Assembly: GCA_963971285.1 (NCBI GenBank)
Contig: OZ020248.1
Span: 3,844,001-3,908,000 of the forward strand
DNA length: 64,000 bases
DNA from: Astropecten irregularis
Taxonomy: Eukaryota > Echinodermata > Asteroidea > Paxillosida > Astropectinidae
Reading direction: 5' to 3'
A program made the position numbers and the translations under genes. Positions 977 to 48,109 of the stretch are shown one piece after another. Every line of letters begins with the position of its first letter. The first letter of the stretch is position 1. The notes beneath the pieces were generated by a model, which saw only the letters and a list, made by a program, of their open reading frames with translations, did not search any database and had not been told where the DNA came from.

Positions 977-1825
977 CCCAGTTGTATATCAAGGAACTAC
1001 GATTTTGCTTTATAGGCACCCAGCCTGCATTTAGCACATTTTAATTGAATAGTAATTTCACGTCGTCAGATTTAAGGTCATATATCGTTTATTTTCGTCA
1101 CTGTAACTCGCCAATGAAAATAGGTCAGGTAGCCTTAATTATGTGATATCAGCCCAGAAATTTAAGAAAATCGGTCACGAAATTTTTCTGCTGCTCTCGA
1201 TTTTTTTGGGAAGGTTGATTAAGTTCGGGAATATCAGCCCCAAATAATCATCCTAACTCAATATAAGAAGGGTAGCGAAGTGGTAAACAATTCGGCACAC
1301 GAATTCCCTAGTTTAGTCGTGCCGCGTGGTCTAGATCTAACACACAAGCTTGTTCTATATAATTTCAACCATGGTAGATCGACACATTCAATATGCACAC
1401 ACCCCCCTGTAACGTGTCCTCCCCACCCCCTCGGGATCAACAAATACAACTTGGTATATAAGGTTGCCATTATTCGAACTTCCCAAAGTGCTGCGCACTC
1501 GGAACAAGTGCAGAGGCCTTTTAAAAGAAAAAAACCGCGGACGGTATTTGTAGAGGAAAACAAAAAAATACAAAAAGAGTGAAACATCTAGAATCTTTAA
1601 CCTAGATAATTATAAAGCAAGGGGATATTAGGTTTGTTGCCTTGGTGGCTTAATAGAAGAAATTGATGGTTAGTACCGCCATGACACTTGGACTGGTGCC
1701 AAGATATTGGGGGCAATTTTGAATTTCAATTTTGAATTTCATCATGCAAAATCACCATAGCGTGGGGCTATAAGTTCAGTACGTGTATTTTACAAACAGC
1801 CGCTCGAGGTTAGCATTGTCAGCCT
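977..1825. other. Unassigned intergenic sequence
   Basis: A frame of about 100 codons at 1280-1582 opens with GTG rather than ATG, is also open on the opposite strand and matches no family I recognise, so I do not call it a gene. A short tandem TTTTGAATTTCAA repeat lies near 1716-1740. Confidence 0.5.
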
Positions 1826-1979
1826 GGGTTGATTTCACGAAGCACTACGATGATTGTAACTCGAGTTACGAAGGATCATAAACCATCGTAGGGGGGGGGG
1901 GGGGGGGCTATCCTACGTTGGACTGCAATGCATCATAAGGCCTACGATAAGTTACGACGAGTTTGGTGAAATCGACCCC
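1826..1979. mobile_element. Palindromic MITE, family D, with internal G-run
   Basis: The ends GGGTTGATTTCAC and GTGAAATCGACCC are inverted copies. The interior has paired TAACTCGAGTTACGA and TAAGTTACGACGAG blocks and the marker GCAATGCATCATA. The same layout occurs at 14819-14953, 23838-23983 and 29763-29908. This copy carries an internal run of about 18 G, absent from the others, which is likely slippage. Confidence 0.8.
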
Positions 1980-3032
1980 TGGTGCTGTAAGATCTGTACC
2001 ATATTAAAACAGAGTGACATGACGATGTTTTGATCCTTATTTTGCAGCCGAAATGGATACGAGGTTAAACGTGACGTTCCCATCGGCCTCCATCTTTAAT
2101 ATCAGACGCAGTGACGTCATAATGACGTTGCAAACTGTGTATGACCAGCAAAACAAAATGATGCTGAACGTGTACGGACACAACACTGTGTCTGTACATG
2201 CACACTATATCGCCGGAAGCCACCCACACTCTGCCACGGATCCTCAAAAGGCCGTAACGGCCAGGAAAATCTCGCAATTTCCAGAGGATTTGGTCCGGCG
2301 ACGAATCCCCACTACACCATTGATTGAAATTCCAAGGACGATGTGCAGGCATAAAAGCTAACGCACAATATCGGAAACCGCCTAATTGGCGGTTCGTATA
2401 TAATGCGCCTCGTTCGTCACGTATATCCTCAAGCCTAGAGCTAGGTATAGACAGTCATGTATACATGTATTCCGAAATTAATTGTAGTACTTGTATTGCC
2501 TTGAAGAAAATCACGTGTGTGTGGTATCATACACAGATGGACATTATAACACGAACAATACAGATAGTTATACCAATAGACAGTATACAATGCTAGTATG
2601 TGTGAATCTTCACATCTGCTAAATTTATACATCAACCATTTTGTTTTATTACTTATCTGAGTAAATATGCATTGTTTTCATCTTATTCGTATACCGAGAA
2701 AAGACAGATATTGTTTTCATTAAAAGTTAAACTGGCTGAAGATGGGTCATTTTCTAACATCTTCTATATTCACCGTCTGAAAAGGTTTTGTTCTTTTCAG
2801 TGAACAGTCTTTTCAGTCTAAAGATGTTCATCATATAAGCCGCGGCCTGTAGGCTGAATATTCTACTCTTCCGCGGTCACGGAAAAAAAAATTCCGCTAA
2901 AAATAAGCAGCAAAACACAGAGCTATCCAACTACACGTGATATCAATGAAACTGAAAAAAGGACTTCTTTTTTGTTACATATTAAACTCAACCAAGAAGA
3001 AGAAAAATATTCTGCATGGTTCTTAAAAATAA
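1980..3032. other. Unassigned intergenic sequence
   Basis: Frames at 2053-2361 (plus) and 2065-2352 (minus) overlap each other and resemble no known protein. No repeats are shared with other regions. Confidence 0.5.
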
Positions 3033-3371
3033 TGTACTATCATACTTTGGTAGTTTGGTAGCATATCCGCACAGAAATCTTCATAGATTTACCTATAACT
3101 TTAACCTACATGTATATAGGGTATAAAGATGATGATGGTAGACAATTTTTTTTTGCCTGAAATGCTGTTTTTATCAAGAAAAAGAGTAAAACCAATGACC
3201 AAAAAACCCCAACAATTTTGATCTTTTAAAGATCCGAAAAATAACGGTGAAAATATTTTTGTAAATATATACCGTGGGCGTTTTTCACAGTTTTCTCAAA
3301 AAGTGGGCACCGAATGGGACTGGGAATTTCACAGATGACAAAAACCAAAGTATCAGTGATGTTACCTTTAA
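3033..3371 (-). mobile_element. TTAA-type MITE, family A (inverted)
   Basis: Begins TACTATCATACTTTGG and ends ACCAAAGTATCAGTGATGTTACCTTTAA. In between, in reverse order, are the family A blocks: AGGGTATAAAGATGATGATGG, the hairpin around GATCTTTTAAAGATC and TTTTCTCAAAAAGTGGGCAC. The left end has diverged from AAAGGTAGTATC. Confidence 0.8.
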
Positions 3372-4185
3372 CCGTGATTGTAGGGACAATTCCACTGCCA
3401 ATCACAGCCGTTACGGGGTTAAATTTGCCGCAGGGACAGATATAATTACTTGTGTCCCCAGAAATTTTCCCCTTTTACCAAAGTGCATTATGCCATCGCT
3501 CACTAGCAGGAAGCACTGTGCTTAATATACACAACCCAAGACAAACACGATTGGGAATGGTCCCCAAAATCCCCTTATTTGAATTGCTCTATCGACGCAA
3601 TGCAAAGACCATTTGAATGAAGATTCTGATTGAAGAGATAAAGCAAGCCACTCTATTTCAGGATGTTAAAGCCTTTTGCCTTCCCAGGGATTCAAGAAAG
3701 ACAGGAAGTAGATTGAATTGATAAAGTGCAAAAATCTTCGTGATTTCAAACTAAGATATTGGTAAGGAAATAGGTCAACCAACAGAATGGTGTGTTTTTT
3801 TTACCGAGTAACTAAAAACAACTTTCATGTATTTTGGTCAAAATCATATTTTTCTGAATCCTAGAAAATCGCAATTTATCAGTTATTTTATCTGCTATTC
3901 GAGAAGAAAGAGACAAAAATCGGGACTGGCGTTCGTGTAACTTACAAAAGTGCATTTTGTTTATAAAGACGTCGAGCCAATCAGGTAGCTTGAACTGCCA
4001 GGAGAGTGCCACGTGATTCGGAGCGCCGCGTTTCATTAGTCAATTATCCAGTGGGTTGTCTTTTGGAATCACTGAACAATGAAGTTTCCCCTTTTCTTTC
4101 ATTAGACATACTGTATCATATTTTGGCAAACGTGCACCCATGTATCTGACCCAACATGTATACGTCACGAGAAAATATTTGTTTA
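3372..4185. other. Unassigned intergenic sequence
   Basis: No gene or shared repeat recognised. Short frames on the minus strand at 3812-4036 resemble no family. Confidence 0.5.
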
Positions 4186-4974: not shown

Positions 4975-5522
<548 letters not shown>

Positions 5523-8462: not shown

Positions 8463-8706
8463 GGGCGTGTACGAAGCGGAGGCTCAGGCTCCGTCTCAAG
8501 CCGCTCCGGATACATTTGGTGAATCCATTCTGAAATAACGGGTATCAAAATAGAGGCTTTTGGCTGCGGTTCGGAAGTAGATTCTCTAGTTTAAAAAAGA
8601 AAACAGAGCTTCAGCTTCAATGGAAAACCACAACCTATATTTTCAGCATAGGCCTAATGGATGTCAGAGCTGGAGCCTGAGCCTGAGCCTGAGTCTGAGC
8701 CTCCGT
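8463..8706 (-). mobile_element. Family F foldback MITE (short hexamer ends)
   Basis: Ends GTACGAAGCGGAGGCTCAGG and GAGCCTGAGTCTGAGCCTCC. The core is in the opposite orientation to 4975-5522 (GGTATCAAAATAGAGGCTTT, then ACAGAGCTTCAGCTTCAATG). Only one to four hexamers remain at each end, which shows how much the 4975 copy has expanded. Confidence 0.8.
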
Positions 8707-9395
8707 GTCTCTGCTGATAACGCTGAGAATGCTGCACTTCTGATTCTCGCTCTTGGCTTAATACAGGGTTAGAGCCGAATTTCCAATCTATCAGCATGTC
8801 TAAGCACTTTTTTGGGGGGTTAGCCCTCTAGCGCCACCTCGTGTTGGCATTGCTATTATCTCCATCTTGAAAATAATATTTATTGAGTACGTATTTCTGT
8901 TTAACTCAACGTCTCCTGATGATGTCTAGAGCAGGCTAGTTGAAACGTTGAGACCTTACGAGAAGTGCGAACGATATAGAAGTGCGAAAGTACGAACGAT
9001 TCTTACATGGTGTTTCCGCAAACCGATCCACATACCAATTGTCACCATGCAAAGCCTCAAAATAATCTTTCTTCAACGTCCCTATACCAAATAATGTACT
9101 TCGTTTGCCTAAGGCTGTTGTCGAAAGTCCTTCAAGCAAGATTTTACACTTTACGATGATGTGTCTTTATCATATCAAGTACCAATATACAAAATGGCGC
9201 CATCATAGCCAAAATATGCATAATTACAGACCCGAGTAGGCCTACATCTTGCTATGCGGACACAGCACTGACCTATAGTCACAGGGTACATAGATCGACT
9301 TTGTGAACACACTGTATGGATTTTTCTACCTATTGATCGTGAGCTGTCCGTGTTTTTGTGTATAATGGCCGTCCGTCCAGCAGGCACGACAGGCT
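8707..9395. other. Unassigned intergenic sequence
   Basis: A locally repeated phrase, AGAAGTGCGAACGATATAGAAGTGCGAAAGTACGAACGAT in content, spans about 8960-9000. No gene recognised. Confidence 0.5.
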
Positions 9396-9738
9396 ACAAG
9401 AAATACAGATTCATGGGCACAAATATCACGACAGATACAGTAATGGTCATCTGTGAAAATTTCAGTTCAATACGGTGCCCACTTTTTGAGAAAACAGTGA
9501 AAAACAGCAACAGTATTTCTGAAGTCTTTTCTCTTTTATTTTTGATCTTTTAAAAGATCAAAAAGATTGTCGGTCGTTGTTTTACTAATTTCTGGATAAA
9601 TACACCATTTCAGGCGCGGCGGAACAATTTTAACGGTATGTTTCTACCACCACCATCTTAATTCATACCATGTAAGTTATACGTAAATCTGTGAACATTT
9701 CTGTTTTGGTTTCTTACCAAAGTATGATATATCCTTTA
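9396..9738 (+). mobile_element. TTAA-type MITE, family A (left end missing)
   Basis: Starts inside the element at AAATACAGATTCATGGGCAC and runs through CCACTTTTTGAGAAAACAGTG, the GATCTTTTAAAAGATC hairpin, CACCATTTCAGG, and CTTACCAAAGTATGATATATCCTTTAA. The left terminal repeat is absent. Confidence 0.8.
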
Positions 9739-19013: not shown

Positions 19014-19036
19014 TGGCGTTCACGAAACGGAGGCTT

Positions 19037-19072
<36 letters not shown>

Positions 19073-20405: not shown

Positions 20406-20928
20406 AGGGTAAGTAATGTTTCATGTACAAATCCATGGGAATATATTAATATCATTATAAGTAGTAGTAGTAGTAGGCTTATGCATCACGATAAGACAAA
20501 TGCCACAAAATGAACATCCTATTGCACAACTGAGGTATTGCACCTGGTAAAAAAAAAGCAGCCTATGAAAATATTTTACATTTTGAAATAGCTATGCATT
20601 GTGTTTATACGCTGTGAGATATTCCCATCGGTTTGTATGGTAGACAAAACTAGCTCACGACTGTTTCATGTTTAATGTTTGTTGTGACATAATGCGCAAT
20701 ATATAAGAATATCTTTTACAAAAATGAACCGAGGTAGATTTACGTGGACACGAATTTAATTACACGCGGTATGACCGGATCAGGTAAAACGAAGTCTTCA
20801 ATGTTTGTTGTTACCCACACACCACTCCAGTATGACAATGGAATTTCTTGCATGGTTAAGATTGTGCGAAACGTAAGGGAGACGAAGGGTCGCTTCACAA
20901 TTAGAAAGATAGGACAACAAATTACATT
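20406..20928. other. RASD intron sequence, no feature recognised
   Basis: Lies just distal to the junction-derived array within the presumed RASD intron (minus strand). A (TAG)n run lies near 20462-20475. A plus-strand frame at 20744-20938 contains a Walker-A-like word but has no other support. Confidence 0.5.
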
Positions 20929-21300
20929 CACCTGTTAAAATCGACAATTTTTAAATAACACATCGACACTCACAATTTAACATCGACAACTTCATTATAA
21001 TGCATCGACACCCATCTGTTAAAATAGACAACTTCTTAACAGATCGACACTCACAATTTAACATCGACAACTTCATTATAATGCATCGACACCCATCTGT
21101 TAAAATAGACAACTTCTTAACAGATCGTCACTCACAATTTAACATCGACAACTTCATTATAATGCATCGACACCCATCTGTTGATATCGACAACTTCATT
21201 ATAATGCATCGACACCCTTCTGTTAAAATAGACAACTTCTTAACAGATCGACACTCACAATTTAACATCTACAACTTCATTATAATGCATCAACACCCAC
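20929..21300 (-). repeat. Tandem array derived from the RASD exon/intron junction
   Basis: The basic unit is 81 bp, made of two related half-units of about 39 and 42 bp. On the minus strand, half-unit A reads like TTAACAGATGGGTGTCGATG and half-unit B like TTAAATTGTGAGTGTCGATC. The true RASD boundary reads TTAACAG|GTGGGTGTTGATG. There are four A copies (three CAGAT, one CAGAA), four B copies (all GTGAGT) and one unit reduced to 42 bp. Homology continues 22 bp into the exon (21301-21322, 19 of 22 bases identical to an A copy). The distal edge at 20930-20935 carries ACAG|GTGAAT. The length is a multiple of 3, which leaves a meaningless open frame on plus. Confidence 0.92.
21295..21300 (-). promoter_or_regulatory. 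Splice donor of RASD coding exon 1
   Basis: On the minus strand the boundary is ACAG|GTGGGT, an intron of phase 1 splitting the Gly98 codon. Without splicing the frame stops three codons past the boundary (GGT GGG TGT TGA). The vertebrate RASD1 gene, as I recall it, has its intron at the same LTG codon. Confidence 0.85.
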
Positions 21301-21592
21301 CTGTTAATATCGACAGCTTCTTGATGGCCGGGAAAGGATTGTTGCCCGACGTGTCCAAAATGTCCAGCTGGTACACATGTCCTTTGATTTTGTAGATTTT
21401 CCTGTGAAAGTCCTCGATCGTTGGCGTGTACTGATCGTCAAATTTCCCGTTGAGGAACCGGCTCACGATGGCCGTCTTGCCCACTTTCGGTGAGCCGACC
21501 ACCACCAGGCGATAGCAGTTTTCTTGAGGGGCAGATACCTCGGAATCCGGGGTGGAAGCCTTTGATGAGGTGGCCATGGCGTTGGCTGGCAT
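21301..21592 (-). CDS. RASD-type Ras GTPase, coding exon 1 (partial gene)
   Basis: First coding exon of a RASD1/RASD2 (Dexras1/Rhes) family small GTPase, a membrane-associated Ras-like protein. Residues 33-40 are the P-loop GSPKVGKT, 55-62 the effector region YTPTIEDF, and 80-84 DTSGN where classical Ras has DTAGQ. The following PFPAIKKLSILTG is typical of RASD. There are 97 full codons plus one base, then a donor. The G4 NKxD, G5, cationic tail and CaaX box must be on the next exon, not seen here. Met1 at 21592 directly follows an in-frame TAG, has T at -3 and is a weak start. Met6 at 21577 has GCCATGG context and may be the real start. The symbol is left empty because RASD1 and RASD2 cannot be told apart. 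Identification by family knowledge; gene structure by inspection. Confidence 0.93.
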
Positions 21593-25730: not shown

Positions 25731-26320
25731 TACGGAGCTCTAGAGCTGCCAAGTTGAGAACCTGAGATAAATTATCTCGGGAAGACCACATTCTTACGGA
25801 GCTCTAGAGGTGCCATCCGACTTGTTGTGATCCTGAGGTAATTTATCACGGGATGACGACATCTTAAATTCAAGATGTCGACATTCTGAGATAATTTATC
25901 ACGGGATGACGACATCTTAAATTCAAGATGTCGACATTCTGAGGTAATCAATCACGGGATGACGACATCTTAAATTCAATTTGTCGACATCCTGAGATAA
26001 TTTATCACGGGATGGCGACATCCTAAAATCAAGATGTCGACATCCTGATATTATTTAGCGCGAGATGACGACATCATAAATTAAACATGTCGACATCCTG
26101 AGATAATCTATCACGGGATGACGACATCCTAAATTCAATATGTCGACATCCTGAGATAATCTATCACGGGATGACGACATCCTAAATTCAGTATGTCGAC
26201 ATCCTGAGATATCTATCACGGGATGACGACATCCTTAAATCAAGATGTCGATATCCTGCCCGTAATTTGTCGTCATCCCAAGATAAATTATCACAGGATG
26301 TCGACACCTTGAATTGCATC
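25731..26320. repeat. 53-bp palindromic satellite
   Basis: About nine monomers with a constant 53-bp period (the A of GGGATGACGAC falls at 25853, 25906, 25959, 26012, 26065, 26118, 26171; the last step is 52). Each monomer alternates a GATAATTTATC palindrome with an imperfect hairpin of GATGACGACATC and GATGTCGACATC. The left edge has two GGAGCTCTAGAG copies 65 bp apart. The last monomer is partly inverted (GTCGTCATCCCAAGATAAAT). Confidence 0.92.
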
Positions 26321-41044: not shown

Positions 41045-41365
41045 TTAAAGGTAGTATCATTCTTTGGTTTTTATCAAAGAAATACAGATTCATGGGCAAA
41101 AATATCAAGACAGATACAGTAACAGTCATCTGTCAGTCCCATACGGTGCCTATATTTTGAGAAAACAGTGAAAAACGGCCACAGTATTTCTTAAGTCTTT
41201 TCTCCTTTACTTAAAAGATTTTCGGTCGTTGTTTTACTAATTTCTGGATAAATACACCATTTCAGGCGGGAAATATTAATTACCACCACCATCTTCATAC
41301 CCTGTCAGTTATACGTAAATCTGTGAACATTTCTATTTTGGTATCTTACCAAAGTATACCTTTAA
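41045..41365 (+). mobile_element. TTAA-type MITE, family A
   Basis: TTAAAGGTAGTATCATTCTT to CTTACCAAAGTATACCTTTAA. The GATCTTTTAAAAGATC hairpin is mostly deleted. It touches the next copy with no spacer. Confidence 0.88.
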
Positions 41366-47095: not shown

Positions 47096-47672
47096 GATGG
47101 AATGTGGAGGGTTTTGGCAGACTCCCAAATCTGAAGCTGGAGTTAAGTGGTTTTTTTTTGACAGACTGTGCCAACGTCTAGAATCCTGGGAAGCTGGGGA
47201 CATAGGAGGGAATGACCTTTCTACTCTCAATGAAGGTTCCTGGCAGACTCCCAAACCTTCAAGGAGGAGTGCAATGGAGGGTCTAGCCTCCTTCCTTCTT
47301 CAGGGAAGGTTACTAGCAGACTCTGTCAAATTCTGAAACCTTGTGCATTGTAGGAAATGACTCCCCTACTATAAGTGTTTTGGAAGGAATTACCCTCCTA
47401 CTCTCAGTGAAAGTTACTGGTAGAGCTATGTCAAACTCTCAAATCTTCAAGGAGGAGTGCATTGGAGGGACTATAGCCTTCTTCCTTCTTCGGTGAAGGT
47501 TACTAGCAGACTCTGCCAAATTCTGAAACCTTCTACCAAAGTGCATCGTAGAAAATGACCTCCCTACTCCCAATGAAGGTTACTTGTAGAGCTTTGTCAA
47601 ACTCTCAAACCTCAAGCTGGAGTGCATTGGAGGGAATGACGCTCATACTCCCAGTGAAGGTACTGGCAGACT
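47096..47672. repeat. Degenerate minisatellite, about 70-150 bp units
   Basis: Recurring phrases: GGCAGACTCCCAAA or AGCAGACTCTGCCAAATTCT, CAAGGAGGAGTGCATTGGAGGG, CCTACTCTCAATGAAGGTT. At least six phrase copies, each 10 to 20 percent diverged, with alternation suggesting a two-part higher-order unit of about 150 bp. Confidence 0.8.
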
Positions 47673-47755
47673 GAGTGGCAGAGTTAGTTGGTCGTAGAAT
47701 GTACTGCAGTTGATCTGAAGAATAACGATTATGAATCCCATGGGAAAAATTGAAT
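47673..47755 (+). mobile_element. tRNA-like SINE head, decayed
   Basis: GAGTGGCAGAGTTAGTTGGT then TATGAATCCCATGG. The placement of A-box and B-box-like words resembles family S2 at 39535. Confidence 0.45.
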
Positions 47756-48109
47756 ACATGTAGTTGGAAGGACATGCCTGTAGTACCATAACACATTGCT
47801 CTTATCATGACTAGCAGGTCTAGGAGTGCCTTGCCTACCATTTCACTCAAGGAAGTTAAGCTGTCTTTCACCAACATACCGGGTACAAAGTTCCATGGAT
47901 CTAAAATTCCGATGTTACCTTTGATGGTATGTGACACTCTGGGTGCGATCTTCCCTAGTTGGTAGGAAATCTTCAAGCTACTCTGGAGATTCTGAATGGT
48001 TTCATCAACTAGAACGTTGCCTTCCAACAGGCTGGTGATGACTGATGACTCATTTTCATAACAACCAGTAGACAAATTGTAGACTCTTGGAGGGTCTGGT
48101 TAAGAGGAT
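47700..48109 (-). CDS. Uncertain open region, unknown product
   Basis: A minus-strand frame is open from just after a TAA at about 48107-48109 down to the minisatellite. No ATG opens it (its first candidate is TTG), so it would have to be an internal exon; TTAACCAG at the upstream edge could be an acceptor. The middle peptide (VITSLLEGNVLVDETIQN, then GKIAPRVSHTIKGNIGILD, then SLTSLSEMVGKALLDLL) looks protein-like, with amphipathic spacing, but I do not recognise it. Below about 47760 the frame crosses the SINE head and is not meaningful. It may be a piece of a decayed transposon or a lineage-specific exon. Confidence 0.22.

Follow-up and report, generated by a model that had tools for sequence, protein, structure and literature searches.

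A tandem array at the RASD exon 1 donor of a starfish fits the exon-boundary minisatellites known as mirages

The RASD gene (Dexras/Rhes type) of the starfish Astropecten irregularis carries a tandem array at 20932-21300 on the minus strand of the window (the whole 64,000-nucleotide stretch of DNA analyzed here), and this array continues in register into the coding end of exon 1. We assign a probability of about 87% to the reading that it is a junction-spanning minisatellite, or “mirage”, seeded by the RASD exon 1/intron 1 boundary and then amplified and partly homogenized, with the exon-joined donor (A0) in use and the outermost donor (C) a relic.

The coding part of exon 1 is 98% identical to P0001 (from an ENA contig) and 96% identical to the Patiria miniata protein P0123. 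Exon 2 lies beyond the 64-kb window at C11:3842871-3843433, 21.9 kb downstream of exon 1, which by subtraction gives an intron 1 of 21,867 nt. Joining the authentic donor to the exon 2 acceptor (TTTTTTTAG/GAG) produces the frame ILTGDVFILVF across the junction and an uninterrupted product of 285 aa plus stop. The spliced protein shares 95.5% identity with its P. miniata counterpart and 75% with a protein of the sea urchin Diadema; identity to an Asterias protein, possibly a paralogue, is 58%. By best match, the host would be a starfish close to Patiria. At the sequence level, the RASD gene is intact. Splicing from relic donor C instead of A0 would lengthen the message by 369 nt that contain four in-frame stops; since the RASD frame is open only with splicing at A0, this supports derivation of the array from the exon. 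A search for relatives in genome contigs with P0123 returned one 22% identical Rickettsiales match, which was set aside.

Cut at the exon-like motif, the array resolves into ten in-register units (A0 B1 A1 A′ B2 A2 B3 A3 B4 C), with nine half-units lying beyond the authentic junction A0. Half-units measure 42 or 39 bp and an A+B pair 81 bp, in agreement with the sequence-only reading of this DNA, which had described an 81-bp repeat of two half-units aligned with the RASD boundary on the minus strand. The array that it delimited is borne out, except that it missed the last unit, whose exon-like part at 20953-20932 forms a second intact KLSILTG/GT junction at the far edge. Tandem Repeats Finder reports three rows for the array, with 81-bp periods plus one 123-bp period that fits the extra A′ unit, and two of the three rows reach 20 bases into the coding exon, to 21320. 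The chimeric A′ unit is a possible sign of unequal exchange between half-units, the sequence after relic donor C looks like native intron, and the actual copy number may differ from that assembled, in which one haplotype is read.

Table 1 Features of the RASD array and of two arrays at other GTPase loci. Slashes mark exon/intron junctions or their equivalents.
Feature	Position	Strand	Donor site	U1 duplex (kcal/mol)	Remarks
RASD (Dexras/Rhes type) exon 1, coding part	21301..21592	(-)			97 codons + first base of Gly codon; Pfam Ras 1.9e-17; 96% to Patiria miniata Rhes-like P0123
A0, authentic junction	21281..21322	(-)	CAG/GTGGGT at 21301/21300	-10.9	22 nt exon + 20 nt intron; in-frame join to exon 2
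B1 half-unit (39 bp)	21242..21280	(-)	ATT/GTGAGT	-5.0	
A1 half-unit (42 bp)	21200..21241	(-)	CAG/AAGGGT	-3.5	Dead donor
A′ half-unit (42 bp)	21158..21199	(-)	CAG/ATGGGT	-4.2	5′ part B-like, 3′ part A-like; dead donor
B2 half-unit (39 bp)	21119..21157	(-)	ATT/GTGAGT	-5.0	
A2 half-unit (42 bp)	21077..21118	(-)	CAG/ATGGGT	-4.2	
B3 half-unit (39 bp)	21038..21076	(-)	ATT/GTGAGT	-5.0	
A3 half-unit (42 bp)	20996..21037	(-)	CAG/ATGGGT	-4.2	
B4 half-unit (42 bp)	20954..20995	(-)	ATT/GTGAGT	-5.0	Other B units 3 bases shorter
C, outermost unit	20912..20953	(-)	CAG/GTGAAT at 20932/20931	-8.4	Exon-like 20953-20932 reads *KLSILT(G); intact relic donor
L069, second mirage	G000:C23:1742584-1744387; array 968-1156 of locus				Other contig than RASD; flank score 36
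L023, 82-bp x 3 array	G000:C1:38273850-38277077, 1744-1992				Just inside intron after Rab-like donor

Several other repeats occur in the window. An array of eight 53-bp units upstream of RASD (25830-26258) has an inverted repeat in its unit (GACATCTT...AAGATGTC), and an 81-bp x 3.3 array (47394-47661) adjoins a 164-residue minus-strand frame (47605-48099) with no Pfam match. Hexamer (AGGCTC)n arrays lie at 4992-5314, 8673-8702, and 19031-19072, one of them with 54 copies, and a translated (I)RC-(L/Y)FEKTVKN-type fragment, which probably marks a dispersed repeat, recurs at approximately 3226-3474, 9272-9553, and 41108-41209.

The sequence AG/GT is kept at two of the ten junctions, both outermost (A0 and C). 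The interior units of A type lack the GT, and those of B type lack the AG. Because the units are homogenized, these interior losses may go back to only some three events, which gives no grounds for invoking selection against decoys. The GTGAGT in four B units, the strong outer donors, and the location of the array at the donor would suit a kept regulatory element, in which U1 binding at decoy donors slows or tunes the removal of the 21.9-kb intron. We consider this unlikely, as the B units are without the exonic AG and have weak predicted U1 pairing, conservation evidence is lacking, and losses among homogenized units amount to few events.

The exon end at 21322-21301 (AAGAAGCTGTCGATATTAACAG) matches the nine downstream half-units, from B1 to C, at 15, 19, 19, 16, 19, 16, 19, 16, and 17 of 22 positions. 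The figures given previously, 19 for type A and 16 for type B, are right, with one B unit at 15. The 33-mer spanning the junction matches the units at 23-28 of 33 positions. First-order Markov simulations of the array (n = 5000) reached 17 of 22 at best, with none at 19 and 13 at 16, and the best of 5000 shuffled exon ends likewise scored 17. No match to the exon end of at least 16 of 22 is present outside the array on either strand of the 64-kb window, and of all 271 possible 22-mers in exon 1, the last one has the highest score against the array. Units A and B resemble each other more closely than in any of 5000 shuffles. The similarity is therefore far above chance in the kind of shuffled-sequence comparison that the sequence-only reading had proposed, and the register, the scores, and the intact gene together sustain its claim that a splice junction, exon end included, was amplified into the intron. 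Its other proposed check concerned copies of the satellite elsewhere: a 394-base query of the array against 475.7 Mb of genome matched a single place, the array itself (the DNA search skips very common words, and repeat counts are lower bounds), which is not the pattern of a dispersed satellite. A plus-strand reading frame of the array found no homologue at E 0.1 among 973 candidates, and an exact-pattern scan of viral contigs gave 0 matches.

The intronic side had been said to match equally well. This holds for type A (GGGTGTCGATG, 10 of 11) but not for type B (GAGTGTCGATC, 8 of 11). Between the intronic part of B and the sequence following relic donor C, 13 of 17 positions match with one gap. 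This likeness is modest: anchored at the junction, it is equalled by 159 of 20,000 shuffled tails and by 3 of 509 GTGA sites in the background; unanchored, its p is 0.022. The intronic part of A0 has no resemblance to the sequence after C (p 0.69); only the B units appear to resemble, modestly, the start of the native intron. An origin of all units from the exon end alone by way of quarter-units of ~20 bp was set aside, as the p-values are too weak to claim it (0.018 and 0.016 for the exon against the two intronic quarters; 0.007, 0.088, and 0.56 for the other pairs).

All half-unit lengths (42, 39, 42) are divisible by 3, and the exon frame stays open through the commonest A and B units. These features would fit a former coding repeat, whose in-frame copies once belonged to an exon 1 with its donor at C and were left in the intron after A0 gained its GT; the GTGA start of C, as deduced for P0001, P0002, and P0034, would fit as well. 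Such a history is nevertheless quite improbable. It would place 27-residue repeats inside the small GTPase core, four in-frame stops are present today, the B units are intron-like from the GT onwards, and the coincidences of frame and length rest on few independent events.

The derivation of the array from the exon junction, and not the reverse, is well supported by comparison with related sequences. The KKLSILTG at the exon end is identical at 8 of 8 residues to Patiria miniata, and the motif is common to other echinoderms and vertebrates, which upholds the earlier argument that a conserved peptide speaks against donation from satellite to exon. The exon end and the commonest A unit differ at three positions, all synonymous (~1.2% expected for three random changes); this pattern is restricted to the commonest A, since the B, A′, and C units have coding changes. 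The CTG of the exon is replaced by TTG in all nine copies. In P0001, KKLSILTG leads straight into an intron reading E (GTGAR), and the array is absent over 37 codons; the absence of the array in relatives is read from translated tails, chiefly this one. The shared peptide end, the synonymous A differences, the array-free P0001, and the intact gene frame all agree with the exon-to-array direction previously proposed. A pre-existing satellite that overwrote or donated the exon end is very improbable: judged by its sequence the exon end is indeed part of the array, and gene conversion could act in either direction, but the conserved peptide, the single genomic location, and the array-free exon of P0001 all point against it.

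The tails of related proteins also bear on the age of the intron. We surveyed 166 proteins (the best 120 of each of two protein searches) using a simple text rule applied after the Gly of LSxLTG. In 118 of these listed proteins, some of them vertebrate, a tail other than exon 2 directly follows the same Gly, which we read as run-on into the intron at the same position. Since vertebrates are included, the RASD intron is probably old, and the comparison supports the view that the peptide end and the intron position both predate the array. As in P0001, the residue after the Gly is E in P0002 and P0034; it is N in P0003 and K in P0004. Relic donor C (GTGAAT) would read E at this position and A0 (GTGGGT) reads G. 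Among the 118 tails, E follows the junction 43 times and G 6 times, a ratio that only leans towards C as the ancestral donor.

In the mirage reading that we prefer, a seed of ~39 bp, made up of the terminal 22 bases of RASD exon 1 plus ~17 intron bases, would have been tandemly duplicated; the alignment of the B intronic part with the sequence after C is what would place those ~17 intron bases in the seed. The copies would have become distinct as A (42) and B (39) half-units before the 81-bp A+B pair was amplified and partly homogenized, probably via unequal exchange. The exon-joined copy A0 would serve as the working donor in living animals, and the outermost C would be a relic of the ancestral donor, 369 bp downstream. 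With GT lost from the A-type and AG from the B-type interior units, the pre-mRNA would carry weak decoy-like sites and be spliced at A0. The array itself presumably has no function of its own.

A comparison across other GTPase genes of the same genome revealed a second array at an exon edge. From a Pfam Ras search (150 matches listed of 271 candidates), we compared 70 loci (30 + 40, both RASD exons included; one of the 70 contains N), scoring each match against 600 bp on each side (140 flanks) with 280 control scores, the maximum of which was 18. Two flanks score above all controls, L069 at 36 and RASD at 30, and the next reaches 16. L069 is a Rab32/38-type exon (best PDB match Rab-32, 2.8e-28) with three 62-bp units that are 59 to 61 of 62 alike. 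Each unit would consist of ~30 intron bases, a putative acceptor, and ~32 exon bases; the middle copy keeps CAG/G and the outer copy reads CAAG. The array at L023 is not counted as a mirage, because it starts 16 bp past the end of the match and its similarity to the exon is not above controls. With the index case RASD left out, the rate among the compared GTPase matches is 1 of 69, a rough figure since matches do not always end where exons do, and an array that starts past the end of a match can be missed. An assembly or sequencing artefact at RASD is hardly credible, given the substitutions that distinguish the half-units, the presence of a chimeric unit, the location of the array on a 27-Mb contig, and the same kind of structure in a second gene, although tandem arrays are error-prone and an amphioxus draft misassembled one (PMC3087553).

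A more general proposal, which we advance tentatively and rate at somewhat less than even odds, is that mirages reflect a widespread, ongoing turnover of splice sites in starfish, perhaps in deuterostomes at large. Junctions would be amplified, the exon-proximal copy would take over as donor, and the interior sites would be silenced, so that the ancestral donor persists as a strong relic, hundreds of bases inside the intron. If so, approximately 1 in 70 GTPase matches would bear a mirage, and many would be predicted genome-wide.

Mirages are already known as a kind. In amphioxus, the name is given to tandem repeats across exon-intron boundaries, at both 5′ and 3′ boundaries, which are unstable in length and, according to the authors' RT-PCR, do not disturb regular splicing (PMC3087553; PMC3902484). 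Examples are Adh3 and the globins BflGb6 and BflGb9 (PMC3087553). Mirages, described from lancelets, have been proposed as a source from which new introns and exons could arise. Like these, the RASD array is minisatellite-like, has a unit spanning the exon/intron boundary, and adjoins the authentic boundary, here of an apparently intact gene. Its 42/39-bp half-units and 81-bp pair fall within the ~10 to 160 bp of mirage units, and the unit combines exonic sequence (22 bases) with intronic sequence, the latter being weaker and found in B units only. On the features compared, the RASD and L069 arrays both fit mirages. The RASD array differs in its host, a starfish, and in its organization as an 81-bp dimer of 42/39-bp half-units. 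Moreover, AG/GT is kept in many, not all, units of the amphioxus mirages, whereas the interior donors of the starfish array are all dead.

Other boundary repeats can also be compared. The 60- and 108-bp repeats of lancelet PGBD5 are likewise imperfect and include splice sites, and their copy number differs between assemblies; they overlap exons and are partly annotated as coding, whereas the starfish array is intronic (PMC3902484). Human genes in segmental duplications also have minisatellites at exon-intron boundaries, with 27 intron modifications counted after manual inspection (PMC2812944). Those repeats vary between paralogs and form new introns or lengthen existing ones, and the likeness to the starfish array rests on boundary position. 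Intron gain by tandem genomic duplication of AGGT shares the multiplication of a splice-site sequence by tandem duplication, but in RASD the donor of an old intron was copied and no new intron bounded by duplicated AGGT arose (PMC3443670). We reject intron gain for RASD because the proteins of relatives, vertebrates included, break at the same Gly and the intron looks old.

A search of open-licence papers, at the level of their listings, found no echinoderm mirage, and mirages are, as far as searched, new for this phylum. The two unlinked starfish cases, one at a donor and one at a putative acceptor, show that the process extends beyond lancelets. Starfish provide another invertebrate lineage, with an assembly in large contigs, for gauging how frequently splice junctions undergo amplification, how decoys come to be silenced, and whether new introns are ever created.
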